From Clavelina lepadiformis (lineage: Eukaryota; Chordata; Ascidiacea; Aplousobranchia; Clavelinidae), in NCBI RefSeq assembly GCF_947623445.1, contig NC_135243.1, positions 18,732,479 through 18,796,478 of the forward strand: DNA of 64,000 bases. The letters are read 5' to 3'. Of the stretch, positions 21,564-63,890 are shown one piece after another (the first letter of the stretch is position 1; each line of letters begins with the position of its first letter). Under the pieces are notes generated by a model. The model saw nothing but the letters and a program-made list of their open reading frames with translations, made no database searches and had not been told where the DNA came from. The translations under genes and the position numbers were made by a program.

Positions 21564-24500
21564 TTACCTCGCTTTCGGCAAACAAAAAACTTTTGCGGTG
21601 ACCGTTCCTTGCAAATGTTCTTGGAACTTCTTTTCGGCTTCATCAAAAGTGGCTGAGAGCTTGAGGCCTTTCGTTTCGGGAAAAATCAAGGCCACTATTG
21701 CGGCCAACATGGACGTGATTCCAAAAATTATCTCTGTTAAAGCATAATTCAAACATGCCATAAAGTATACGCGTTAATGAAAGAGGACAACGTGATACGT
21801 TTATCATACGGACACACCGGTGATAACCATGGCATCTCATAATTTGTTTGAACTGTAAAAGGCGAGAAAATACTTCCAATCCTTGCAGCCATCATCGTTA
21901 AACCAAAAGCTGTGCTTCGTCCGACCGTAGCGAACATTTCAACTGTGTGCTGGTACAACACACCAAATGCTAAGCTTGCACCAAATTTTCCCACCATTGC
22001 CAATACCGTGGCGAAGCTTTCAATACCTAAAAGATGAGGATTTTTTTCAACCAGTTTGGCGAACCTTTGTCCAAATTGTTGAAATTTTGTATAATTAATC
22101 AAAAAAGCAGTTACGCTTATATAATACCGGCTATGTGACTTCCAAACTGGAGTGCAACTGTTGAAGCAAGGCAGGTCACGCTAGCGAAGAACAAGGAGTA
22201 TCCGATCGTTCTTGTGAATCCTATAAATGAAATTAGTGGAATTGCAAATAACATGGCCAGCAATTCCATCAACTCTCCAACTGCGTTGTTAACGAAGATG
22301 TTTCCAACTAGCGAACCAATGTTGAGAACCAATCCGTAGTAAACCATGCTGCACAATGTAAAAAGGAATATTCTGAACAGAAAATATGTTCAGAAACTAG
22401 AGTAAAATGTTGCAGTAAGTAACGGTACAGTTTGAGGCTAAAGCTTGTATACCTTGCGATTGCCCAAACAAGCATATCGATTACAATAAAGAATCGAGTG
22501 TAGGGACGAGAAAATATTTCTTTCAAAGAATTAATGTTGTTTTTTGCGTTTTTTTCAATTCCAGCACACTTGAAGTTTTTCTTTGCTTTGTGCCAAACGT
22601 CAGCGGAAAGCTCGGTGCCATTGCGTTTTGCTATAGTTACGCAGATTTTTTTCGCTTCGGCCAGTCTACCTTTGGTACATAACCATCTGTAAAACAATGT
22701 AACTTAAAAATAACCAAATCAAAACCTTTATTTAAATACTAGAAGAATGTTATATACATTGTACTTTGAAAATACTTGCTAGTTCAACTTACAAAACATT
22801 AGTTTTCAACTTTGTATGCTATTGAAACTGCTAATTAAACAACAACTTAAACTTAAGGAAATTTGTTCGATAAATTTAGGGTTGTAAGCAAGACATAAGT
22901 ATTGAAGCAAAAATAAGCCAAACCGACACGACTCACGGCTCAGTTAACCACGATGTACCTTGGAGACTCCGGCATAAGCCAGGCTAATGGTATTAAGGGC
23001 AGAATCGACATGGAAATTGCGGTCTCCAGTTGTCTCCAGTCTCTCCAAACATACCCGAGCAAGCTGAAAATCATGCATCCGGCACCAAATGCAGCGTTAT
23101 ATCCGAGTCCAGTAGCTATCCTCAATTCTGTTTTAGTTATTTCGGCAACTGCAAAATAAGATCTTATTAATTTAGTTAGTCGACAGGTGTCATATAGGTT
23201 ATACTATTTGCCATTTGATGAACGATTATCTTAAAATTCTAAACGGTAAACAATGAAAATATCGCGCATTATGGATAATAGAGAGAGAGGCGAGCGAAGG
23301 AAAAGTATGGCAGTTACAGACAACCTTAAGTTTAATTGCCTACTAACTTACCAAGAGAAAATCCGGCAACTGTTGTAACAAAGTCAAAGAAGGCAGTCAG
23401 ATAGCGGAAAACGCTGTAGACGTAAATGTTGGGTGAATAAGTTGTACAGAAGGCGACTATGAATAGAAATATGGGCGCCGTTCGAAACACTTTGATTCTT
23501 CCAAACCTGGAAATGAGGAAAGTATGATTGTGTAACTCTAACGCCTTTACGACGTCCATGTTGGGACAAACAACCATCACCATGATGTCAAACAACCAGT
23601 GGTTTTCGAGCTTGCAGACCGGTAAAAGCCAAAAAGTTTTTTGCGGCCGATAGTACAAAAGTTCAAGATATGGATTGTTATGACATGAGTTGAACGAACT
23701 TGCACAACAAGTTGTATCTGCAAATATGAGTCTGACGCGGATCAGGCTTTTGGAAAGACTTGACTTGTGTTTTAGTGTTTAAAATACTCGACATAGGCTA
23801 ATACGTGTTAACGTTGGAATTTTGGTTAACTTGACTAGAGTCATAAAACAAATTTTTTCAAATCGTTGTAAAATCGGTTTTGATATTTGAGAAATAATGT
23901 ACCGTATTCAAAAATCACTCGCAATACATTCTACTAAATGTGCAAAAGCGTCAGAAATGGATAAAATTAGATTTTATGGTCATATTTACTTTACGAGTAT
24001 TTTCAAAGCCGTTTGTTATCGACCTAATGCAAAAAATAATTTTTTAGACTCGGTTTGACTTGGGAATGTAATAAAAGGGCTCGAATTGACTTGCGCTGAT
24101 AGTTGGCTTGACTTGTGTCGCGGCCATTAAAACTAGTTTCCATTAAAACTGGTATCTACACGTATGGACAAACTTCACGGTTAAAGCTACATGTCAGCAT
24201 CAGTGAATGCAAAATGTATTAGATCTAAAGAACACACAAAGCGAATATTTTTGAAAGTTACTGGAATTATTACAGTGAGACTTCACAAACAAACGTTTCG
24301 TCATGACGTTTCATAGATCACTATAACCAGCAGTACGGGAGGACCATCATCACAACTTACAAAACACATACGTAACCTACATCAGTCTGCAGCAAAAACT
24401 TTGTATTTAGAATTTAGAATTAGGTTTCTTCTGGTTTCATAACCCAGACAAACGAATAAAACAACCAACTTTTTTTTACAGATCGCCAAAAACATCGACC

Positions 24501-35118: not shown

Positions 35119-35869
35119 TAAACATTTCGCTTTGGTTTTTATAAGTCTATGCAGGTTCTTTTTTAAGGTTTGGTTTGGGTGACCGCTAAGTAGTTTTAAG
35201 AGACCGCAAGTGTTTCATTTAAATACCAAAAAATAGTAGTAGTAAGTTGCAAGTCCAAATTTTGGGAAACCGCTGGAGAAATTTGGGGGACCGTTTCGGT
35301 CCCCCAAAACACCTTTAAAAAAACACTGAGTCTATGCATCATAAAGCTTTCGACCCTAACCAGTCAACAAGATTTAGATTCTTGAGACAAAAAGGCGATG
35401 TATGTGTGGAATAATGAGATTTCTTTTATTCGGCACATCCGTACCAGCAACAAACATATACCGCTACGGCATTAAGACCGTGTGGGGGCCATGGCTAAAC
35501 TTGAGCCCGGGTACCCTTTTGGTAAAATCCATCGGTGTGTCGGTAATACTAAGTGGTTTGATATTACGTTATACTTACTTAAATTTTAACCAACAATCTC
35601 TCGTCACGTAATAAATTTTATCCAAATCGTCGAAATGCTTCTAGTGAAAATTTGTCACAAAAACGCCTATTCCCTCCAAATTTAGTCGTAGATCAATTTA
35701 ATCTATCGATCACACGGACATTGGAATAGTTGCAAATGTTGTTGCTAATTTTGTATAGGCAAGCAAAAAACACATTTTTTTAATTCCCCAACAATGTGAA
35801 AAATTAAATGTACATTTAGTTTGCTCGTCAAATTGTCATTAGTTATTTTTTTAAGTTGGAAGTCAGCAG

Positions 35870-37798: not shown

Positions 37799-37812
37799 TT
37801 TATTATTTTATT
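37799..37812 (-). terminator. Possible polyadenylation signals of the LCCL gene
   Basis: Two AATAAA hexamers on the minus strand (37799-37804 and 37807-37812) lie about 205 bp after the stop codon of the multi-LCCL gene. The surroundings are AT-rich, so chance occurrence is possible. Confidence 0.4.
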
Positions 37813-38016: not shown

Positions 38017-41000
38017 TTAGCCTAGTATAAACGACCGGAGCCATGAACCGTAAGAGCGACTTGTTATGCCGTTCTTTATGCTGCCAGTATACGACTTCTG
38101 GCCTTGCTTCACGTAGACCACAACTTTTCCGCCGGAATCTAGGGTAAGTATAATAAATTTAAAAGCAGGATTACTATGCTGCACAAAAATATTTGATAAG
38201 GAGGAGCTCCAATTTTCCAAAGTAAAAAGGCAACCTAATTACATGACATTTGCGAGCACGACGACATTATGAAGAAACTATAAAAAACTCTTTCCTACAT
38301 TTGAAACATTTTTTGCATAACAATTGTGGTGCTATGCTTAAGCTCAACGCTGAAATTATCTAAATTCCGAAACACCGATTCTCACAAAGATTTTGGCAAA
38401 TATTTTAATTACGAAAGAATACTTACAATGCCCAAACACTCAGAATGATCCATAAATTTAAAATTAGCCACTAGTTCCTATTCTAATTTGTTATTGCTTG
38501 AGTGGTGTTTATCTGGTGAAGGTGTACCGCTAGGTCCGCGATATATTACTCACTAGTTATTGCACCAAGGTGAATTGCAGCGCGGCAAATCGCAGAATCA
38601 TCGGTATAAACCCCAGTTCCCCAAACAGCAGCGCTTGACGAAAGACATCCGGAAGGACAGAAAACTTCAAAACTTACTGTTTCTGAAGCAAATCTGCTAT
38701 CCCGTGCGTTCGAACTACACGTGACTGCATTTGCCTGGGCTGATGTCGCTGCATAAGAGTGTGCGTAGACATCAAACACTTTCAACGTTTAAATAATAAA
38801 CTTAATAGAAAACAATGTTCGGAAAAAAGGATGATTTTTAAAATCAGCTAACAGTAACATAACATCGCTATAATAACAAAGCAGTGGTTTCAGATGTTGC
38901 GTTTATTTTAATTATAACTACATTGTTTTATCCATTTTTTCACAACTTATTTTCTTTACCTGGAATTGTTTGCTTAAAACTGAAAGATGATTCCCAAGAC
39001 CCATAGGATGAACTTGTAACTGAGTTTCTCTCCACACCTGCATAAGATGATTGACCTGGTTGCTTGTAGACTGTAATTTCACCACCTGAATCTATATATT
39101 AAATAAAGAAAGTTATCAGATTATGATATTTTGTCTTGTTTCTAACACAAATGTGGATCGATTTCTTTAGAAAAGAATTATTTCGCAATTCAATTACGAC
39201 ATTATGCTCACCGTTCAATCTTCCATCATGTATAGCAGCTCTACATATGGATGAATCGTGAGTATAAACAATACTTCCCCACAAAGATCCACTGGACTCG
39301 ACACAACCAGGTGGACAGGTCACTTCAAAACTGGTTAGCGAAGTGAACCTCGCATCACGGGCAGTTGTTGTGCAGATAATTGAAAAACCTGTGCAACATA
39401 ATTCCGTTCATACCGTGAATTTGTGTAAAACGATTAAAACAAACACCAAAAAAGTTGAAAATTCTTTTTTCACCTTAAAAAGAGGTTGATTATTGTAACA
39501 ATTTTGTTGTTGTTTATGAAGACTACTTTGGTCAAAAACTTAAATTGCATGCTGTTAAGAGCGCAACTGTTAACTTGGAAAATGTGGATAATTAAATATT
39601 AATGAAACGTTTTCAGCTGCTTAAAACAAATATTACATTTTGGTTGATATAAGATTTGTAGTTTCCAAGTTTTGACACAGGAACTACTTGGTATATACCA
39701 TTAGATTTACCATTAGGGATTTCTGATGTAAACGTGAAAGATGAATCCCAAGCTCCATATGATGAACTTGTTATTGAGTTTCTCTCAATACCGGTATAAG
39801 ATGATTGACCTGGTTGTCTGAAGACTGTGAGATCTCCACCATTATCTGGATTAAAAGATAGCCGTTAACTAAAAATGCATGAGAATTTAGAAAAGCTTCA
39901 TTTACCATTAATTTAATATTAAAATTACTGTCCAAAGACTAAATGATTATACGTTGAAGATGCAATAACATTTGTAAATGCGAAATTAAATTTTTCAATG
40001 GACAGCTTTGCATCATGAACGGCAAGCTTTCATTTCGATTATCAGATACAAATAGTAACAAATTTTCCAAAAATTAATCTTTCGAGGTATTCATTGAAGT
40101 CCCCCACCCCCCCTAAAAAAAAATCAAAGAAAAAAATTAGTTTTTTTGTAATTACAGTTATATCAGAAAGTTTATAAGTTTTATTTCATAATGCTTGAAC
40201 AATAAAAGTTAAAATAGTTTACCAGTCAGCCTTCCATCGTGAATGGCAGCTCTACATATGGATGAATCGTGAGTATAAACAGCACTTCCCCAAATATTTC
40301 CATTGGATTCAACACAGCCAGATGGACAAGTCACTTCAAAACTATTTTGAGAAGTAAATCTCGCATCACGGGCAGTTGTTGTGCAGGTAATGGAACGATC
40401 TTCGAAAGTAAAAACATTCCTTTAACAGTTGTTTCATTTAGAAAGTAAAAGCGACTTATTGTTGTATCACAGAAGGCTAATTGCAAAATGATACTTATTT
40501 TATTAGTTGATATTTTTAGAAAGACATGTTTAATTAACATCAGTAAACATTTGTCGTTCAATAATTATTTTTACAACCAATCGGTTTCAGAAGTTGTTTT
40601 ATTTTGTTTAAAACTACGTTGTTTTATACTTTTCTTCACAAACTCATTTTCTTTACCTGGAATTGTTTGCCTAAAACTGAAAGATGAACCCCAAGACCCA
40701 TAGGATGAACTTGTAACTGAGTTTCTCTCCACACCTGTATAAGATGATTGACCTGGTTGCTTGTACACTGTAATTTCACCACCTGAATCTATATATTAAA
40801 TAAAGAAAGTTATGAGATTATGATATTTTATCTTGTTTCTAACACAAATGTGGATCGATTTCTTTGGAAAAAAATAATTTCGCAATTCAATTACGGCATT
40901 ATGCTCACCGTTCAATCTTCCATCATGTATAGCAGCTCTACATATGGATGAATCGTGAGTATAAACAACATTTCCCCACAAAGATCCACTGGACTCGACA

Positions 41001-44000
41001 CAAACAGATGGACAGGTCACTTCAAAACTGGTTAGCGAAGTGAACCTCGCATCACGGGCAGTTGTTGTGCAGATAATTGAAAAACCTGTGCAACATAATT
41101 CCGTTCATACCGTGAATTTGTGTAAAACGATTAAAACAAACACCAAAAAAGTTGAAAATTCTTTTTTCACCTTAAAAAGAGGTTGATTATTGTAACAATT
41201 TTGTTGTTGTTTATGAAGACTACTTTGGTCAAAAACTTAAATTGCATGCTGTTAAGAGCGCAACTGTTAACTTGGAAAATGTGGATAATTAAATATTAAT
41301 GAAACGTTTTCAGCTGCTTAAAACAAATATTACATTTTGGTTGATATAAGATTTGTAGTTTCCAAGTTTTGACACAGGAACTACTTGGTATATACCATTA
41401 GATTTACCATTAGGGATTTCTGATGTAAACGTGAAAGATGAATCCCAAGCTCCATATGATGAACTTGTTATTGAGTTTCTCTCAATACCGGTATAAGATG
41501 ATTGACCTGGTTGTCTGAAGACTGTGAGATCTCCACCATTATCTGGATTAAAAGATAGCCGTTAACTAAAAATGCATGAGAATTTAGAAAAGCTTCATTT
41601 ACCATTAATTTAATATTAAAATTACTGTCCAAAGACTAAATGATTATACGTTGAAGATGCAATAACATTTGTAAATGCGAAATTAAATTTTTCAATGGAC
41701 AGCTTTGCATCATGAACGGCAAGCTTTCATTTCGATTATCAGATACAAATAGTAACAAATTTTCCAAAAATTAATCTTTCGAGGTATTCATTGAAGTCCC
41801 CCACCCCCCCTCAAAAAAAATCAAAGAAAAAAATTAGTTTTTTTGTAATTACAGTTATATCAGAAAGTTTATAAGTTTTATTTCATAATGCTTGAACAAT
41901 AAAAGTTAAAATAGTTTACCAGTCAGCCTTCCATCGTGAATGGCAGCTCTACATATGGATGAATCGTGAGTATAAACAGCACTTCCCCAAATATTTCCAT
42001 TGGATTCAACACAGCCAGATGGACAAGTCACTTCAAAACTATTTTGAGAAGTAAATCTCGCATCACGGGCAGTTGTTGTGCAGGTAATGGAACGATCTTC
42101 GAAAGTAAAAACATTCCTTTAACAGTTGTTTCATTTAGAAAGTAAAAGCGACTTATTGTTGTATCACAGAAGGCTAATTGCAAAATGATACTTATTTTAT
42201 TAGTTGATATTTTTAGAAAGACATGTTTAATTAACATCAGTAAACATTTGTCGTTCAATAATTATTTTTACAACCAATCGGTTTCAGAAGTTGTTTTATT
42301 TTGTTTAAAACTACGTTGTTTTATACTTTTCTTCACAAACTCATTTTCTTTACCTGGAATTGTTTGCCTAAAACTGAAAGATGAACCCCAAGACCCATAG
42401 GATGAACTTGTAACTGAGTTTCTCTCCACACCTGTATAAGATGATTGACCTGGTTGCTTGTACACTGTAATTTCACCACCTGAATCTATATATTAAATAA
42501 AGAAAGTTATGAGATTATGATATTTTATCTTGTTTCTAACACAAATGTGGATCGATTTCTTTGGAAAAAAATAATTTCGCAATTCAATTACGGCATTATG
42601 CTCACCGTTCAATCTTCCATCATGTATAGCAGCTCTACATATGGATGAATCGTGAGTATAAACAACATTTCCCCACAAAGATCCACTGGACTCGACACAA
42701 ACAGATGGACAGGTCACTTCAAAACTGGTTAGCGAAGTGAACCTCGCATCACGGGCAGTTGTTGTGCAGATAATTGAAAAACCTGTGCAACATAATTCCG
42801 TTCATACCGTGAATTTGTGTAAAACGATTAAAACAAACACCAAAAAAGTTGAAAATTCTTTTTTCACCTTAAAAAGAGGTTGATTATTGTAACAATTTTG
42901 TTATTGTTTATGAAGACTACTTTGTTCAAAAACTTAAATTGCATGCTGTTAAGAGCGCAACTGTTAACTTGGCAAATGTGGATAATTAAATATTATTGAA
43001 ACGTTTTCAGCTGCTTAAAACAAATATTACATTTTGGTTGATATAAGATTTGTAGTTTCCAAGTTTTGACACAGGAACTACTTGGTATATACCATTAGAT
43101 TTACCATTAGGGATTTCTGATGTAAACGTGAAAGATGAATCCCAAGCTACATATGATGAACTTGTTATTGAGTTTCTCTCAATACCGGTATAAGATGATT
43201 GACCTGATTGTCTGAAGACTGTGAGAACTCCACCATTATCTGGATTAAAAGATAGCCGTTAACTAAAAATGCATGAGAATTTAGGAAAGCTTCATTTACC
43301 ATTAAGTTTATATTAAAATTACTGTCCAAAGACTAAATGATTATACGTTGAAGATGCAATAACGTTAGCAAATGCGAAATTAAATTTTTCAATGGACAGC
43401 TTTGCATCATGAACTGCAAGCTTTCATTTCGATTATAGGATAGAAATAATAACAACTCTTTTAAAATTAATCTTTCGAGGTATTCATCAAATTTCCCCAC
43501 CCTCTATTCCTAGCCCCCCAAAAAAAAACATTGAAAGAAAAATATTAGTTTTTGGTAATTACAGTTATATCTGAAAGTTAATGAATTTTATTTCATAATG
43601 CTGGGGTAATAAAAGTTAAAACAGTTTACCAGTCAGCCTTCCATCGTGAATGGCAGCTCTACATATGGATGAATCGTGAGTATAAACAGCACTTCCCCAA
43701 ATATTTCCATTGGATTCAACACAGCCAGATGAACAGGTCACTTCAAAACTATTTTGAGAAGTAAATCTCGCATCACGGGCAGTTGTTGTGCAGGTAATGG
43801 AACGATCTTCGAAAGTAAAAACATTCGTTTAACAGTTGTTTCATTTAGAAAGTAAAAGCGACTTATTGTTGTATCACAGAAGGCTACTTGCAAAATGATA
43901 CTTATTTTATTAGTTGATATTTTTTGAAAGACATGTTTAATTAACATCAGTAAACATTTGTCGTATAATAATTATTTTTACAACCAATTGGTTTCAGAAG

Positions 44001-47000
44001 TTGTTTTATTTTGTTTAAAACTACGTTGTTTTATACTTTTCTTCACAAACTCATTTTCTTTACCTGGAATTGTTTGCCTAAAACTGAAAGATGAACCCCA
44101 AGACCCATAGGATGAACTTGTAACTGAGTTTCTCTCCACACCTGTATAAGATGATTGACCTGGTTGCTTGTAGACTGTAACTTCACCACCTGTATCTATA
44201 TATTAAATAAAGAAAGTTATCAGATTATGATATTTTGTATTGTTTCTAACACAAATGTGGATCGATTTCTTTAGAAAAGAATAATTTGCAATTCAATTAT
44301 GACGTTATGCTCACCGTTCAATCTTCCATCATGTATAGCAGCTCTACATATGGACGAATCGTGAGTATAAACAATACTTCCCCAAACATTTCCATTAGAA
44401 TCAACACAATCAGATGGACAGGTCACTTTAAAACTAGTTTCGGAAGTAAACCTCGCATCACGGGCAGTTGTTGTGCAGATAATTGAAAATCCTGTGCAAC
44501 ATAATTCTGTTTATACCGTAAATTTGTGTAAAACGATTAAAACAAACACCAAAAAAGTTGAAAATTCTTTTTTCACCTTAAAAAGAGGTTGATTATTGTA
44601 ACAATTTTGTTGTTGTTTATGAAGACTACTTTGATCAAAAACTTAAATTGCATGCTGTTAAGAGCGCAACTGCTAACTTGGCAAATGTGGATAATTAAAT
44701 ATTATTGAAACGTTTTAAGCTGCTTAAAACAAATATTACATTTTGGTTGATATTAGATTTGTAGTTTCCAAGTTTTGACACAGGAACTACTTCGTATATA
44801 CCATTAGATTTACCATTAGGGATTTCTGATGTAAACGTGAAAGATGAATCCCAAGCTCCATATGATGAACTTGTTATTGAGTTTCTCTCAATACCGGTAT
44901 AAGATGATTGACCTGGTTGTCTGAAGACTGTGAGATCTCCACCATTATCTGGATTAAAAGATAGCCGTTAACAAAAAATGCATGAGAATTTAGGAAAGCT
45001 TCATTTACCATTAAGTTAATATTAAAATTACTGTCCAAAGACTAAACGATTATACGTTGAAGATGCAATAACATTTGTAAAAGCGAAATTAAATTTTTCA
45101 ATGGACAGCTTTGCATCATGAACGGCAAGCTTTCATTTCGATTATCAGATACAAATAGTAACAAACTTTCCAAAATTAATCTTTCGAGGTATTCATTGAA
45201 GTCCCCCACCACCCCCCCCAAAATAAAAACATTAAAATAATTTAGTTTTTTGTAATTACAGTTATATCTGAAAGTTTATAAGTTTTATTTCATAATGCTG
45301 GGGTAATAAAAGTTAAAACAGTTTACCAGTCAGCCTTCCATCGTGAATGGCAGCTCTACATATGGATGAATCGTGAGTATAAACAGCACTTCCCCAAATA
45401 TTTCCATTGGATTCAACACAGCCAGATGGACAGGTCACTTCAAAACTATTTTGAGAAGTAAATCTCGCATCACGGGCAGTTGTTGTGCAGGTAAGGGAAC
45501 GATCTTCAAAAGTAAAAACATTCGTTTAACAGTTGTTTCATTTAGAAAGTAAAAGCAACTTATTGTAGTATCACAGAAGGCTAATTGCAAAATGATACTT
45601 ATTTTATTCTTTGATATTTTTTGAAAGACAAGTTTTTTTAACATCAGTAAACATTTGTCGTATAATAATTATTTTTACAACCCATTGATTTCAGATGTTG
45701 CTTTTTTTATGTATAACCATGTTGTTTGAACCATTTTTTCAAAAATCTATTTTTTACCTGGAATTGTTTGCCTAAAACTGAAAGATGATCCCCAAGACCC
45801 ATAGGATGAACTTGTAACTGAGTTTCTCTCCACACCTGTATAAGATGATTGACCTGGTTGTTTGTAGACTGTAATTTCACCACCTGAGTCTATATATTAA
45901 GTAAAGAAAGTCATAAGATTATGATATTTTGTCTTGTTTCTAACACAAATGGGGATCGATTTCTTTAGAAAAGAATAATTTGCAATTCAATTATGACGTT
46001 ATGCTCACCGTTCAATCTTCCATCATGTATAGCAGCTCTGCATATGGATGAATCGTGAGTATAAACAACATTTCCCCAAACATTTCCATTAGAATCAACA
46101 CAATCAAATGGACAGGTCACTTTAAAACTAGTTTCGGAAGTAAACCTCGCATCACGGGCAGTTGTTGTGCAGATAATTGAAAATCCTGTGCAACATAATT
46201 CTGTTTATACCGTGAATTTGTGTAAAACGATTAAAACATACACCAAAAAAGTTGAAAATTCTTTTTTCACCTTAAAAAGAGGTTGATTATTGAAACAATT
46301 TTGTTGTTGTTTATGAAGACTACTTTGATCAAAAACTTAAATTGCATGCTGTTAAGAGCGCAACTGCTAACTTGGCAAATGTGGATAATTAAATATTATT
46401 GAAACGTTTTCAGCTGCTTAAAACAAATATTACATTTTGGTTGATATAAGATTTGTAGTTTCCAAGTTTTGACACAGGAACTACTTCGTATATACCATTA
46501 GATTTACCATTAGGGATTTCTGATGTAAAAGTGAAAGATGAATCCCAAGCTCCATACGATGAACTTGTTATTGAGTTTCTCTCAATACCGGTATAAGATG
46601 ATTGACCTGGTTGTCTGAAGACTGTGAGATCTCCACCATTATCTGGATTAAAAGATAGCCGTTAACAAAAAATGCATGAGAATTTAGGAAAGCTTCATTT
46701 ACCATTAAGTTAATATTAAAATTACTGTCCAAAGACTAAATGATTAATTATACGTTGAAGATGCAATAACATTTGTAAATGCGAAATTAAATTTTTCAAT
46801 GGACAGCTTTGCATCATGAACTGCAAGCTTTCATTTCGATTATAGGATAGAAATAATAACAACTCTTTTAAAATTAATCTTTCGAGGTATTCATCAAATT
46901 CCCCCACCCCCTAGTCCTAGCCCCCCAAAAAAAAACATTGAAAGAAAAATATTAGTTTTTGGTAATTACAGTTATATCTGAAAGTTAATGAGTTTCATTT

Positions 47001-49930
47001 CATAATGCTTGAGTAATAAAGGTTAAAACAGTTTACCAGTCAGCCGTCCATCGTGAATGGCAGCTCTACATATGGATGAATCGTGAGTATAAACAGCACT
47101 TCCCCAAATATTTCCATCGGATTCAACACAGCCAGATGGACAGGTCACTTCAAAACTATTTTGAGAAGTAAATCTCGCATCACGGGCAGTTGTTGTGCAG
47201 GTAAGGGAACGATCTTCGCAAATAAAAACATTCGTTTAACAGTTGTTTCATTTAGAAAGTAAAAGCGACTTATTGTTGTATCACAGAAGGCTAATTGCAA
47301 AATGACACTTGTGTTATTAGTTGATATTTTTGGAAAGGCATGTTTAATTAACATCAGTAAACATTTGTCGTGTAATAATTATTTTTACAACCCATTGATT
47401 TCAGGAGTTGTTTTATTTTACTTATAACTACATTGTTTTTTCCATTTTTTCACAAACTTATTTTTTACCTGGAATTGTTTGCCTAAAACTGAAAGATGAT
47501 CCCCAAGACCCATAGGATGAACTTGTAACTGAGTTTCTCTCCACACCAGTATTAGATGATTGACCTGGTTGCTTGTAGACTGTAATTTCACCACCTGAAT
47601 CTATATATTAAATAAAGAAAGTTTTGAGATTATGATATTTTGTATTGTTTCTAACACAAATGTGGATCGATTTCTTTAAAAAAGAATTATTTCGCAATTC
47701 AATTACGACATTATGCTCACCGTTCAATCTTCCATCATGTATGGCAGCTCTACATATGGATGAATCGTGAGTATAAACAATACTTCCCCACAAAGATCCA
47801 CTGGAATCGACACATCCAGATGGACAGGTCACTTTAAAACTAATTAGCGAAGTAAATCTCGCATCACGGGCAGTTGTTGTGCAGGTAATTACAGGGTGTG
47901 AATCACCTGCAAAATTCCTTGAAAACTTTACCACAAATTATCGATGTGAAAAACATTATTCAAACGGTTTTTTAAATAAGCATTACATGTCGATTTGCAA
48001 ATTTGTTAGGTATGTATGTAGTTAATGTTTGAAAAACAAATTTGTGGGGAACTTTTTATTTCCCATATTAAAGTATCATCAATCGAGGTTTTCATGCATT
48101 TCAAAAAAATATCAGCACCAAACTTTACGTGCTTAACTCGTAAAAAATCACCTTCCATATGGAGACCTCTATAGATTGAATGAAATAAATTGCGTTATAA
48201 CAGTACTAAAAGAATTTTACACGAAATAGAGCGTTCCAGTAATAGTTGGTAAAAGTTTTGGGGAGCCCTTAACTCTTTAAAAGATAAAACTATTATAGAT
48301 AATTTATTCGCAAAGTGATGTTTCTACATCCACTCCAACTCAAAGTGGTGTTTAGAAAGCTGTAATAAAAACAGGAGTAAATTATAAAAAAGTTTTTAAG
48401 GAAAACTTAAAAATCTTAAGACGTTTCCATCATCTTTGCGCTTGCATCAATTAGTTTTCTTAACTTTAGTCTGAGCAAGGTTTTTTTCTTTTCATACCTG
48501 CGATGTCACAGTTCTTTATTTTTCTTCATTATGGTATAATTGTTCCTATTGTTAAGCAAATTTGTAAATCCTTAAGGGTCGTATGTCCAGTTTTCGCTAG
48601 TAGCATGAACTTTGGTTGTGAGACGACTGTATATAATCGAGCTAGTGGCATGAATTTTTATTCAGCTATCTCAGTTATATAATAGGCGGAGTGATGTTAA
48701 CCTCAGAAATGTCATTATGATGTAAAATTGGCATCAATGTGTATTGAGCTCATAACTTGTTGCTTACCAACAAACGTAAAAATGTAGACTACTTTTTAGC
48801 ACGGCCCCTAGTGAGATATGTGCAAAGGAAGTAGTGATACTAGTACTAGGTAGTTCATGCTAGCCCTGTTCGGACTACTGACCGTTAGCATGACTTTTAG
48901 TTTGTGCTATACTATAAAGAGAACTGTGCATATAGCACCAGTTTTTAGATAAACAAAGGAAAACGAATACAGACTTTTCATATTACAATTTAATGTCACT
49001 AAGGAAAGGTTTGAAATGGTAGTCTAACTTAGAAGTTTGAGTTAGGCAAAAATACGCATTTATCAGTTCTCACTTTTATTATTCAGAAAAAGAGTACAAA
49101 GCTCTTACATGCGTTCTGATATGACACGAATATTACAATACTGTGTTACATCATGATCAGATACGTTATGTTTATGATTAGAACGCCGTGTTTAGAAAAT
49201 TTTGTTTTGCTGTTCTAGCTAGAGTAACTTAGTCATAGCATACGTTTGTAATAATGGAAGGAAGGTTTTCGAAAGCTTTGAAATGGTTTTTACTTTGTGG
49301 TGATGATAAAAAATATAAAAGTACTACAATAAAACGTTTTAAATGATTATAAATCTTTTTCAGTCGGTTTCATTCCTATCGAAAGGTATAACGCAAGCAA
49401 AGCACTTCACGTTTTTTTACTTGATCCAACGAACTAATTGTCGTATGATACAAGGATGTTGTTCAGGAGTTTATTATGCCTATTTTATTTTTATTTATTT
49501 TTTATTATATTAGTTCATTTTATTATACTGTTTATTATAAAAACGCTACAGCCTTGCCTTCATACGTAGACAACGGTGTCAGCCGGCAGTAAGTAAAGAC
49601 GTTCTCACCATACTTAAAGTCCTATATAGCTAAAAAAACAAAACGACGGAGTATATGCAAAGACCTTTACCTCAAATATACTGTATGTAGGGGTAATTAG
49701 GCCAGGGATGCAGTGCTAAAAAAAACGAAATGTGGGAACGCACATTTTTTCAAATAGTGGCCAAATGTGGGAACTCCTAAAAATAGCCATTTTCAACAGT
49801 ACTTCCCAAAAGAATAAAGTGTGGCAACGCCGTTCCTACTCCACTACATCCGTGATATAGACGAACAAGCGTGATACTCACAGACTGAAATTCTCAGCAA
49901 CAGGAGAGCCAGTGATCCATACAAAAGCAT
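38017..49930 (-). CDS. Secreted protein with 12 tandem LCCL domains
   Basis: Twenty-five minus-strand exons, all joined in phase 1: a signal exon 49930-49882, then twelve pairs. They are 47906-47721/47600-47469, 47213-47037/46642-46508, 46185-46009/45889-45758, 45503-45327/44948-44814, 44491-44315/44195-44064, 43806-43630/43239-43105, 42782-42606/42485-42354, 42096-41920/41542-41408, 41085-40909/40788-40657, 40399-40223/39845-39711, 39388-39212/39091-38960 and 38748-38554/38138-38017. Total 3789 nt, 1262 aa. The signal peptide is MLLYGSLALLLLRISVC. The first exon of each pair codes C-x-TARDARF, CPxGC, YTHDSSICRAAIHDG; the second codes GGEITVYKQPGQSSYTG and SYGSWGSSFSF. Together these form the four-cysteine LCCL fold of Coch, CRISPLD and Limulus factor C. 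No transmembrane segment or other domain was seen. A lectin-like, matrix or defence role is only inferred. Confidence 0.88.
39312..42902. repeat. Recent 1697-bp tandem duplication in the LCCL array
   Basis: 39312-41205 and 41009-42902 are aligned at an offset of exactly 1697 bp over about 1.89 kb, exons and introns alike. By eye I see one base difference (in the poly-C/A run, 40115 versus 41812). The unit contains four exons, or two LCCL domains. The neighbouring units at 1.69-1.71 kb spacing are clearly more diverged. This indicates a very recent unequal crossover, gene conversion, or an assembly duplication. Confidence 0.93.
49706..49851. mobile_element. Short inverted-repeat element (MITE)
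   Basis: GGATGCAGTG at the left and CACTACATCC at the right are inverted repeats with one mismatch, enclosing 146 bp with three GTGGGAACG/GTGGCAACG words. It ends 31 bp from the signal-peptide exon of the LCCL gene, inside its first intron. Confidence 0.55.
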
Positions 49931-51373
49931 ATCTTCACAGAGGTTTTTCACTTGCAAATCTAACCTAATAAACCGACGAAACTGTGAATCAGTGAATAAA
50001 CATATCGTTAAACTAGAAATAGCGATGTAAATCGGTCCATAAATCTACAGAGTGGAAGTGAGTCGATACCTATACTTTCACAACCTCTGATCATAGTATG
50101 TGAAAATATTAAATTCTGAATATTGGGTGCTTAATAAAGCATTGCTTTGTAGTACCCAAACTTATGTAAAACCTTTGTTTTAATTCATTTCAATATTTAA
50201 ACGTAATCGGTCCTTCTTTGTTTAATCGTTTTTATAGGTTGCGTTATTTTAGGTCATAAGCGGAAGACTATTATGACCGGAAAAAACAATACACTTTACC
50301 AAACTGCGGTAAACCTAGTAAGCAGATTTTCTGCGATGACTTTGTTTACCAAAACATGATCGTGCAAGCAATCAATCAGGAAGTTATCGCGCCAAGTGTT
50401 TGCTAAAATCAAGTTTATGGAAAGATTCAAACGCGCTTACAAAACAAAGAACGACCGGAGTTGTTGAACAGAATACAAGCTTTCGATTGCCAGTTTACAA
50501 GTGCCCTTTGTGTTTACCACGTTTGTGTTTACCACATAAAATAAATTTTTGTTTGTGTAATATACTAACATTTAAGAAAACGTTAGCTAAACCCTTCTTA
50601 CAAATGCTGTGATACACACTATGCATGCTTAGGCGGAAGGCATTTTTCACTGACCGCTTACGTTCGCGATCTATTGATGCAAAACCATATGTATAGGTTA
50701 CGCTATCAATTGCGTTGACTTGTGTAGGTAGTTTTCGAAAAAGTTATTGGTTTTAGTAATTATTATCATCAAAACTATGCTGCAAATTTGGGGTTTACGG
50801 AAATACATTCGAAGATTGTGACGCCATACAGACAAACCACAGTGTGTCAATGACGCTTGCTTGAGGAACGAAATGTTTTGTATCGAATTAGAAATTATGC
50901 ACACAGGTAACAAACAGCAAGTAGCGTTCAACTGGGGCATGGGTTCATCAGGACACTCAGTGGCGGTTCGTGCGTTTTATAAAGGGAAAGACTGCAGCTT
51001 AGTTAGGCACTTTCAAACCTTATATTACACTGTGCTGCGTTAATTTTTAGGTTACTAAAGTATTGACGGTTCTTAGTGTACTTTTTGATGCTGAATCCAA
51101 AACTGTTATCCGTTTTCTTCAATCAGGTCTAGTTTTTTTGCAAATTGCATTTGAAATTTTTGACAACTTCAGCTTTCAGCGTTTGCGATTGAGATTTGTG
51201 GTGTCATAAAAATGATTTAGCTTTTGAATTAAGTTTTGATGAAACTTGAGTGACATCACAATGAGAAGAACATAACGAATGCACCTGGTGCTTGAAAAGT
51301 TAAACTTCTGAACTTGTTTTTACAGGCTAGTTTAGTGTGCAGTTTAGATGATTTGTTTTTACAGTACTGTACA
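49931..51373. other. Intergenic stretch between divergent LCCL and 51-kb genes
   Basis: About 1.4 kb upstream of both the LCCL gene (-) and the transposase-like gene (+). It should contain the LCCL promoter, but no TATA box stands out. The left edge of the 51-54 kb element begins near 50958. Open frames here match nothing I recognise. Confidence 0.4.
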
Positions 51374-53127
51374 ATGAGAAAGTGCAAAAACGATCCAGAC
51401 AGGTTCTGTTACATATGTGGCAAGGTCACCCTGCGCAGTCGCCAAGCAAAAATTACGCAGTTTGTTAAGAAAGCATATTATGCGTATTTTGGAGTAAAAC
51501 TAGGCGATCAGGACAAGGCATTTGCTCCGCACATATGTTGTAAAGCCTGCGTTGAAAACTTGAGATTATGGAGCCTAAAGAAAATAAAGAGCCTTCCTTT
51601 TGGTATTCCTATGGTATGGAGAGAAGGAAAAGACCATGTCACTGATTGTTATTTTTGCATGACCAACTTACAAGGTATGCTGATACTTGCACTGTATGGA
51701 GGCATTTTCATTAATTGCTTGATTTAAGAGTAAAAGTGTTCTTTTTCATTTTAGGAATAAACCGGAAGAACAAACAACATGTGAAGTACCCTGATGTTTC
51801 TTCAGCCATGAAACCAGTACCACATGGCCCTGGTATTCCTGTTCCAGAACCACCTGGAGAAATAAGTGAAATGGAGTGTTCTTCATCTGCAGAGAGCAAA
51901 GCAAGTGAACAAGACACATGGGATGCAGAGCAAAGTACAAGCCAACCGAAGCCTCTTACACAGCCTGAGCTGAATGACCTAACACGAGATTTAAATCTCA
52001 CCAAAGAATCCGCTCAGCTCCTAGGATCACGACTACGTGAGAACAACTTGCTAGCTCCATGCACCACATATTTCTGGTATCGGTATAGAGATAAAGAGTT
52101 TAGAAAATATTTCAATTATGACGAAGACCATTCCCTAGTATACTGTCAAGATGTTTCAGGATTAATATTAGCTTTGGGCATAGTCTACAGTTCGGCAGAA
52201 TGGCGATTGTTTTTGGACTCATCTGTAAAGAGTTTGAAGGTAGTATTACTACACAATGGCAATAAGATTGGTTCTGTTCCTGTTGGACATTCAGTGAAGC
52301 TCACTGAATGCTATGAAGACATGAAATTCCTTTTGAAATCTCTTCAGTATAGCCAACACAAATGGAAAATATGTGGAGACTTAAAAATGATTTCAATACT
52401 TCTTGGGTTACAGGCCGGTTACACTAAACATCCATGTTTTTTGTGTCTGTGGGACTCGAGGGCTGATGATCGCCACTACACACAAATTAGCTGGCCACCC
52501 AGAACAAGTTTTACACCTGGTTTTAAAAATGTCAAATTTGCTTACTTAGTTGATCCACAAAATATTTATTTGCCACCTCTCCACATTAAACTTGGTCTCA
52601 TGAAAAACTATACCAAAGCACTTGATAAGGATGGCCCAACCTTCAAGTTCTTACAAATGAAATTTCCCCGTATCTCTGAAGCGAAGCTACGAGCAGGAGT
52701 CTTTGATGGGCCACAGATCCGTGAGCTGATGAAAGACGAAGGTTTTACTGCACACATGAGTGCAGTAGAAAAAAGAGCATGGACAGGATTTCGAGCAGTA
52801 ATTTCAAACTTCCTTGGAAAGCATAGAAGCCCTGATTATGAAGCACAGGTTAAAGAGCTGCTTGAAAGTTTTCAATCCCTTGGAGCCCGGATGTCTGTAA
52901 AAATGCACTTTCTGAGTTCGCATTTAGATTACTTTCCTGACAACTGTGGTGACTACAGCGAAGAACAGGGAGAGAGATTCCACCAAGACCTTCGCCATAT
53001 GGAAGAAAGGTACCAAGGATACTGGGATGTAAACATGCTTGCAGATTACTGTTGGTGCTTAAAAAGAGATCTTCCCAATACCACACATAGAAGAAAATCT
53101 TTGAAGCGACACTTTTTGTCAGCATAA
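51374..53127 (+). CDS. Zinc-binding, transposase-like protein of unknown function
   Basis: Two exons, 51374-51674 and 51755-53127, join in phase 1 to 557 aa. The start MRKCKNDP agrees with a widespread family of uncharacterised invertebrate proteins that I recognise from its opening. The N-terminus has paired Cys motifs (CYIC, HICCKAC, CYFC within residues 1-100) like a ZAD-type treble-clef zinc finger. A Pro-rich linker follows (residues 110-170). The body has a GDLKMISILLG segment, then KHPCFLCLWDSR (CxxCxW), and near the end GERFHQDLRHMEERYQG. An acidic residue in the first, the Cys motif and a late Glu would fit an RNase H-like DDE transposase core. This is inference. The frame is intact, so it is either recent or under selection. 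Confidence 0.75.
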
Positions 53128-62867: not shown

Positions 62868-63890
62868 TTAACAACATAGGGGCCTGTCGTAACGCTTCTT
62901 CATTTGAAACCTACGTTGTTCCAACGTTGATTGAATTGTTTGGTGAACCAATTTCATTCGATCTTGAAGATGAAGGATGTCTTCACACTTTGGAGTAAAA
63001 TTTGGTGCCTTACTAACAAGATCTGCAGGCAACCTAAGATTATTTCCAGTGAGCAAGTAATGAGGAGAAACTCCAGTTTCCTCGTGAACACTTGAATTGT
63101 AAGTAGCGCTAACCAAGAAGAGCGCGTCATCCCAAGAAGTTGGGTCAACCTGAACATAATTTTTTAAAATCGCAATTATGGTCTGATTGTTTCTTTCCAC
63201 AGCACCGTTTCCCATTGCGTGATACGGGCTGGTTCTTGTCTTTTTGCAGCCCATTAACCGTGAGAGCTCTTGAAAAAGAATACTTTCAAAATTCCGGCCC
63301 TGGTCGGAGTGAATTGTTTCTGGGACGCAATGTATCGTCACCCAACGGTGGTAAAGCAAATAAGCAGTATCTTTGGCATTTTGGAATTTCATTGGCCAAC
63401 ACTGCATGTATTTTGTGTAGGTGTCACATACGACAAGAATATAACGGTTGTCGTTTCCTGTTTCGGGTAGACCGCTTAATACGTCGATTTCAACTTTCTG
63501 CATAGGTGTATTTTCCTCTGATGGAACTAATGGGGCAAGAACAATCCGCCTTGGTACTTTTCTTAAATCGCACAAGCAACACTCTTTGCAGTATGTTTCG
63601 ACATCTTTGTGGCAAAATGGCCAGAAAAAACGCTCCTTTAACCTGGCAAATGTCCTTTTAACGCCCATATGTCCACCTCCGTGAATTAAATCGTGAACAG
63701 ACTTCAACACATCATTCTTCATTGTTGAGGGCACCAGCAACTGAGCATAAACTTCTTCCAGAGAATTCTCGATTTTTTTTTGAATGATGGTTGGCGTTCC
63801 TGGCTCATCCACTGAAACAGTCTTTTCAACACTGGATCTTTTTGCTGCGCCTTAATAGTGTTTTCGGTTGACCATCCAGATGCTTCTTTT
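62868..63890 (-). pseudogene. Ty3/gypsy-type integrase, broken
   Basis: A long minus-strand frame (the part from a methionine is 314 codons, and it extends in frame to about 63890). It starts with the typical pre-integrase run ASGWSTENTIKAQQKDPVLK. An H-x-H-x-C-x-x-C zinc-binding region follows (LIHGGGHMGVKRTF, then CKECCLC). The D,D-35-E core is complete: VEIDVLSG, HSDQGRNF and AVERNNQT. The frame ends early at RPLCC, and the homologous continuation is in another frame, so there is a frameshift near 62868. Reverse transcriptase and RNase H are deleted upstream. The element cannot be autonomous. Confidence 0.88.

Follow-up and report, generated by a model that had tools for sequence, protein, structure and literature searches.

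A gene of Clavelina lepadiformis predicted to encode a secreted chain of twelve LCCL domains that apparently grew by duplication of a two-domain unit

How a gene comes to encode a chain of LCCL domains and almost nothing else, and what such a chain may do, is the question raised by a locus in the 64-kb stretch of Clavelina lepadiformis DNA analysed here (the window). The LCCL domain, which is small and ancient, has been linked to the binding of LPS and glycosaminoglycans as well as to proteins of deafness and sepsis; the described animal LCCL proteins met in the literature carry one or two copies. Its reported hallmark consists of four conserved cysteines and the motif YxxxSxxCxAAxHxG (PMC10892792). 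The locus lies on a contig of 25,070,715 bp in a genome reported to comprise 210.1 Mb and nine chromosomes, with a scaffold N50 of 25.1 Mb and a longest scaffold of 28.8 Mb (PMC10884593).

Scripted splicing of the minus strand at GT-AG sites (positions 49930-38017) yielded 25 exons and a stop-free product of 1262 aa, with all 24 introns being of the GT-AG type and in phase 1. According to the splice and Pfam, the product was composed of a 17-residue hydrophobic, signal-peptide-like start and 12 LCCL domains, with nothing further. Pfam model PF03815 matched the joined product in 12 stretches (959.7 bits, cut-off 22.6), and the domains delimited by a local HMM covered 95% of the protein, separated by gaps of only 3-8 residues. 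Five other Pfam matches (Rxt3 and weaker ones) had their best stretches within LCCL domains. When all six frames of the window were scanned with the local HMM (speed filters off, matches of at least 8 bits kept), 24 half-domain exons were recovered, together with one stray 14-bit match (35209-35295, plus strand). After the 17-residue start, the protein contained 48 cysteines, four per LCCL domain; six N-glycosylation sequons were present in the mature form, and the hallmark motif was seen by eye in each of the twelve domains of the spliced product. These results bear out a preliminary description of the locus, which had claimed 25 phase-1 exons, twelve LCCL domains each split into two such exons, no non-LCCL domain and, in sum, one secreted LCCL-only protein, and which had proposed the PF03815 search of the joined product. 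The NCBI annotation lists the gene as LOC143451316 (uncharacterised). Its isoform X2 (P0001) agreed with the splice at every residue from 1 to 1009, those of the signal exon among them, before turning to an alternative end; in this model, the signal exon is joined to nine and a half domains. The reading as several short genes was rejected in view of the single signal exon and of the NCBI model and an orthologue (see below), both of which span the array. The gene structure is well supported, and the locus is predicted to be a single gene whose product is a secreted chain of 12 LCCL beads (Table 1).

Table 1. Parts of the locus. Coordinates of LCCL domains are based on the splice, the local HMM and Pfam; tandem units include introns.
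Feature	Position	Strand	Details
Exon 1, start codon and signal-peptide-like start MLLYGSLALLLLRISV(C)	49882..49930	-	donor gtgagtat, phase 1; identical in P0001, near-identical in P0121
LCCL domain 1	47469..47906	-	exons A1 47906-47721, B1 47600-47469
LCCL domain 2	46508..47213	-	exons A2 47213-47037, B2 46642-46508
LCCL domain 3	45758..46185	-	exons A3 46185-46009, B3 45889-45758
LCCL domain 4	44814..45503	-	exons A4 45503-45327, B4 44948-44814
LCCL domain 5	44064..44491	-	exons A5 44491-44315, B5 44195-44064
LCCL domain 6	43105..43806	-	exons A6 43806-43630, B6 43239-43105
LCCL domain 7	42354..42782	-	exons A7 42782-42606, B7 42485-42354
LCCL domain 8	41408..42096	-	exons A8 42096-41920, B8 41542-41408
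LCCL domain 9	40657..41085	-	exons A9 41085-40909, B9 40788-40657
LCCL domain 10	39711..40399	-	exons A10 40399-40223, B10 39845-39711
LCCL domain 11	38960..39388	-	exons A11 39388-39212, B11 39091-38960
LCCL domain 12, divergent, last	38017..38748	-	exons A12 38748-38554, B12 38138-38017 incl. stop codon
Tandem unit U1, two LCCL domains, four exons	46186..47906	-	1721 bp
Tandem unit U2	44492..46185	-	1694 bp
Tandem unit U3	42783..44491	-	1709 bp
Tandem unit U4	41086..42782	-	1697 bp; one base differs from U5
Tandem unit U5	39389..41085	-	1697 bp
Alternative terminal exon, NCBI isoform X2	40042..40112	-	within intron A10-B10; adds GGVGDFNEYLERLIFGKFVTICI after first half of domain 10; outer ends set by hand
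AATAAA polyadenylation-like signal	37807..37812	-	205 nt past stop; consensus match only

Domains 1-10 fall into five tandemly repeated units of about 1.7 kb, with two domains and four exons per unit, after which come domain 11, which is of the odd type, and the divergent domain 12; this arrangement was absent from the preliminary description. U4 and U5 differed by a single mismatch in 1697 bp, compared with an identity of 93.7-95.1% (gaps apart) in the other nine unit pairs, and the near-identical tract at U4/U5 spacing extended over 1916 bases (39312-41227) with two internal mismatches. With U4/U5 set aside, the closest pairs were U2-U3 for the A exon of odd domains (0.028), U3-U4 and U3-U5 for intron 2 (0.023) and U1-U3 for intron 3 (0.033), a mosaic in which different segments have different closest units and which points to exchange between units. 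With phase 1 at both boundaries of every internal exon, the gain or loss of a whole unit leaves the reading frame intact. That the chain grew as a 1.7-kb unit made up of four symmetrical exons (phase 1-1) was duplicated time and again, and that the units exchanged sequence, is well supported. New in the present analysis are the cassette of two domains and the finding that it was duplicated very recently. The single base that distinguishes U5 from U4 (about 40113 and 41810, respectively, minus strand; TTAG in U5, TGAG in U4) lies just ahead of the alternative exon of isoform X2, whose acceptor site may therefore be affected.

When the odd domains were compared, the first exon was the most variable. 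Codons 20-40 of these A exons gave a pN/pS of 1.17 (on average 6.3 nonsynonymous and 1.6 synonymous changes per pair), which is a hint only, because the pairs lack independence and a conversion can transfer several changes together. No nonsynonymous change was found in codons 41-57, which carry the AAIH motif (pN/pS 0), and whole-exon pN/pS was below 1 in all four exon classes (0.58, 0.39, 0.44 and 0.47).

A Pfam search placed LCCL at 61 places in the Clavelina genome. Genes were modelled from twenty 10-kb stretches, so that the family count, which excludes five places (C5, C6 twice, C7 and C8), is a lower bound. On the contig of the window gene, about 2.5 Mb away, five four-LCCL genes (g3-g7) were located at 21.20-21.29 Mb, in a cluster that also holds a further secreted-looking gene (g1/g2, P0131) and a partial group at 21.234-21.237 Mb; a six-LCCL group was found on contig C9. 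In eight other multi-LCCL genes or gene pieces that were modelled, LCCL was split into two phase-1 exons at the same place as in the window gene, which makes the split older than the window array; LCCL matches on C3 (model positions 40-91) and C6 (44-87) crossed the split point, showing that it is not general in the genome. The splice ends of the paralogues are approximate, and g8, a rough model with an internal stop kept as X, was used only in the domain tree. Genes g3, g4, g5, g6 and g7 were represented by P0129, P0125, P0123, P0124 and P0128, respectively (P0123, P0128 and P0129 from NCBI, P0124 and P0125 from a second annotation of the species). Judged by eye, these proteins carry four LCCL domains followed by a stalk, a hydrophobic stretch and a short tail and thus look membrane-anchored. 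Elsewhere, a 4.5-kb stretch with LCCL exons was 99.87% identical on two chromosomes (L042 5509-10000 on C4 and L049 4329-8824 on C5), reflecting either a recent duplication or an assembly effect; the C4 copy reaches the end of the fetched stretch.

The second annotation contains P0121, an automatic model with 6 LCCL domains that lies on a 4.1-Mb contig and is titled 'unnamed protein product [Clavelina lepadiformis]'. Its start (MLSYGSLALLLLGISVC...) is almost the same as that of the window protein, and the ends are also shared, with 90% identity between the B exon of domain 12 and the last 40 residues of P0121. Among 92 matches of P0121 to this genome, the best 11 were all in the window locus (76-94% identical), and those elsewhere reached at most 68%. 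Odd domains of P0121 matched odd and even domains matched even domains of the window protein, with best identities of 91, 96, 87, 97 and 92% for domains 1-5 and of 73% for the last domain. On these alignments, P0121 is taken as an orthologue of the window gene, with the same two ends and 6 versus 12 domains. In its last domain, a first half of the even type is fused to the second half of domain 12; given this hybrid and the automatic model, some exons may have been missed, and the count of 6 is approximate. The second-annotation counterparts of g1, g2, g4 and g6 were 95-98% identical to these genes, compared with only 87-97% at best for domains 1-5 of P0121. Individually, P0124 differed from g6 at 3 of 418 columns and P0125 from g4 at 8 of 417, plus gaps from rough splicing, and P0132 was 97.6% identical to g1 and 95.2% to g2. 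P0132 has 5 LCCL domains and NCBI model P0131 has 4; the extra third domain of P0132 matched nothing in this genome at more than 55% identity, and the g1/g2 tract carries a further LCCL 3 kb downstream that is omitted from P0131, so that the domain count of g1/g2 depends on the model. Of the four other second-annotation proteins compared, these three thus had closer counterparts here than P0121 did, but the fourth, P0147, had no counterpart above 62% in this genome. The difference in domain number between the two annotations, which is known from protein models, is new in the present analysis. The sources of the annotations could be different populations; Italian and Swedish mitogenomes are reported as having been compared as one species (PMC3971592).

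The preliminary description had regarded a protein made almost only of LCCL as a new architecture. In that form the claim was not supported, as long LCCL arrays are annotated in other animals and the gene itself already has an NCBI entry, and the search of tunicates and deuterostomes that it had suggested recovered the same architecture in Styela, Branchiostoma and amphibians. At least five LCCL domains were present in 29 of the best 120 of 169 matches, a count that includes P0001 and several isoforms of other genes. Among the matches listed, such proteins came from Styela (LOC120338417 with 7-9 domains depending on the isoform, LOC120347949 with 7; array sizes 9 and 7), three Branchiostoma species (13 in B. 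lanceolatum), frogs, newts and a caecilian (amphibian arrays of 6-15, with 13 in a newt and 15 in a frog) and Lingula (LOC106170475, 12), and four were unnamed. A long array is annotated in lungfish as well. Shorter arrays were found in Ciona, Phallusia, lungfish and bacteria, to which a further search added bdelloid rotifers. Proteins with at least five LCCL domains from ray-finned fishes, birds, reptiles or mammals were not among the matches listed (the best 120 of 169, 232 and 624, with few of the new rows of the last set domain-counted). These poly-LCCL relatives rule out that the protein is unique to C. lepadiformis. With 12 domains making up 95% of its residues, the window protein falls into an informal poly-LCCL class (at least five LCCL domains forming most of the protein). 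The other members resemble it in having long LCCL runs after a signal-peptide-like start (sequences judged by eye), but have other linkers and tails, such as the Cys-rich tail of the B. lanceolatum arrays with up to 13 LCCL, whereas two types of domain alternate along the Clavelina array, in units of 1.7 kb. In the open-access literature, no printed description of animal multi-LCCL proteins (tunicates, lancelets, frogs) was found, one search being too broad to inform; the long animal arrays are apparently annotated but undescribed. In bacteria (P0027, P0144, P0172 and others), three to five LCCL domains occurred in a row where counted, in some cases with an OmpA domain, so that array-making is not limited to animals.

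To compare the arrays, a quick tree of 159 domains of at least 80 residues from 23 proteins was used, only for contrasts between proteins (148 inner branches, 19 starred and 74 open; few columns). The arrays of the lancelet, newt, caecilian, two frogs, Lingula, the rotifer and the 9-LCCL Styela protein needed one change each (support 28-100, the lowest value being that of one frog), and the domains of the 7-LCCL Styela protein, the Ciona set, lungfish and Clavelina C9 were scattered. In several long arrays, the domains thus cluster with others of the same protein, as though each array had been built or homogenised on its own; this pattern is new in the present analysis. The window gene and the four-LCCL Clavelina family formed one group of 37 rows (support 98), with one long-branched P0131 domain outside. 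The four-LCCL family has the LCCL domain and the phase-1 split in common with the window gene, but differs from it in its membrane-like tail and in that its domains group by position between paralogues (1 with 1 and so on), the pattern of whole-gene duplicates. The domains of the window protein and P0121, in contrast, grouped by odd or even type, which points to internal multiplication, and their last domains grouped together (99). This contrast with positionally stable, membrane-like paralogues is new in the present analysis. Together, the window locus and its relatives suggest that long LCCL chains were made more than once in chordates and some other animals.

An AlphaFold model of P0001 (15-row alignment) displayed repeated LCCL-like units joined by linkers below 50 pLDDT, with a pTM of 0.26; 699 of 1032 residues were at a pLDDT of 70-90 and none at 90 or above. 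The model may be described as beads on a string, its overall chain shape not being reliable. Its best PDB match in Foldseek was the LCCL domain of cochlin (1jbi, target TM 0.86), to which the sequence of domain 1 was also related (1JBI, E 5.2e-17). The second match was 8i03 chain I, a chain of the SIN3L complex. Rxt3, DUF6296 and the other additional Pfam families were taken as cross-hits rather than real domains, as all of them lay on LCCL stretches; the 8i03 match fits this for Rxt3. The cross-hits of the PF08642 (Rxt3) profile on LCCL and the fold match to 8i03 chain I suggest a fold common to a nuclear and an extracellular domain. The mature window protein is acidic (pI 5.58; 14 Lys and 75 Arg versus 68 Asp and 43 Glu), and of four domains for which values were computed, only domain 12 is clearly basic (pI 9.08). 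Simple electrostatic binding of LPS or heparin is therefore not favoured, and charge-driven binding of these ligands was rejected as the sole mechanism.

Known LCCL proteins provide partial parallels. For CRISPLD1/2, cochlin and Limulus factor C, which are extracellular, binding of lipid A, heparan sulphate or LPS has been reported, but in these proteins a single LCCL domain or a pair accompanies CAP, vWA or complement/protease modules, which Pfam did not detect in the window protein. Membership of the CRISPLD and cochlin families was rejected, as the Pfam scan of the window protein gave no CAP/SCP and no vWA domain, respectively. In CRISPLD2, lipid A binding is reported for both LCCL domains. 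Sulphated heparan sulphate is reported to be bound by cochlin, for which the authors suggest the LCCL domain, described by them as possibly lectin-like (PMC9333281). The apicomplexan LAP/CCp proteins, reported to contain up to four LCCL domains, are in part like the array, but mix them with LH2, SR, pentraxin-like and other modules, unlike the window protein. The closest parallel in mechanism is offered by DMBT1, also known as salivary agglutinin, which is described as a secreted SRCR chain with 7-21 domains in humans through tandem copy-number variation and whose short form is reported to bind bacteria 30-40% less (PMC9038570). Like the window protein, it is secreted and repeats one small disulphide domain in tandem; in DMBT1, the number of these domains varies by tandem repeat. 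DMBT1 is built of SRCR rather than LCCL, however, and is an analogue and not a relative; its mechanism alone is compared, and family membership was rejected, since no SRCR, CUB or ZP domain was found in the Pfam scan. For the window gene, the corresponding variation (12 versus 6 in P0121) rests on two annotations, one of them an automatic model.

The best reading, which we hold tentatively and with slightly less than even confidence, is that of a soluble multivalent pattern- or glycan-binding protein with a mode of working like DMBT1, LCCL replacing SRCR; the multivalent binding that the preliminary description had thought possible is plausible, as is a role in defence. Each LCCL bead would bind weakly to a repeated ligand, either microbial and lipid A- or LPS-like or a sulphated glycan, and the array would turn weak binding into a strong coating or agglutinating interaction that scales with domain number. 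Array length would change, perhaps quickly, by gain or loss of units with the frame intact, and the window protein would be the soluble counterpart of the four-LCCL membrane-tailed proteins of the 21.20-21.29 Mb cluster.

The main rival, possible though somewhat doubtful, is a structural or lubricating matrix protein of the tunic, mucus or egg coat, in which the domains would be spacer or cross-linking beads and their number would shift through repeat instability. Near-identical beads are frequent in structural proteins. Cochlin is reported to be a major matrix component, and the amphibian arrays have Pro/Thr-rich linkers, one of them being named mucin-2-like; the gaps of the Clavelina array, however, are very short, its membrane-tailed paralogues suggest recognition, and codons 20-40 of the odd domains are more variable than the rest. 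Much less probable is a self/non-self or gamete recognition factor that would signal through differences in length and sequence between individuals, with the four-LCCL membrane-like proteins of the cluster serving as receptors. C. lepadiformis is described as colonial (PMC10884593), the family is clustered on one chromosome, and the window gene differs more between the two annotations than four family members do, but arrays of at least five LCCL domains also exist in non-colonial frogs, lancelets and Lingula. Equally improbable is a partial assembly or annotation artefact, with fewer units or with several shorter genes expressed, since the near-identity of U4 and U5, an intron 1 of almost 2 kb and the NCBI isoform ending in domain 10, which would fit it, are set against an assembly reported to derive from 117-fold HiFi reads with a QV of 67.4 (PMC10884593), a divergence of 5-6% between the other unit pairs, the X2 model with its signal exon linked to the array, and an orthologue that keeps both ends in one protein.

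If the number of beads in the chain changes within one species, a second domain type would join the soluble repeat-array binders of naturally varying length, and the effect of multivalency would be directly comparable in natural arrays of about 6 and 12 domains. A wider proposal, which we consider unlikely, is that of a hypervariable, length-polymorphic locus at which the LCCL arrays of individuals differ greatly in length through unequal exchange of the two-domain cassette and are kept variable by host-microbe or self/non-self recognition. LCCL would then be an independent equivalent of the SRCR arrays in DMBT1, and a single gene family would include soluble as well as membrane-bound forms.

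Outside the gene, three further regions of the window contained open frames. A 327-codon open frame (62868-63851, minus strand) resembles, by eye, the integrase region of Gypsy-type elements, and two open frames of 143 and 470 codons, the first of them Cys-rich (51296-53127, plus strand), possibly belong to a transposon-derived gene. Open stretches at 21749-23778 (minus strand) look, by eye, like exons of a multi-pass transporter.
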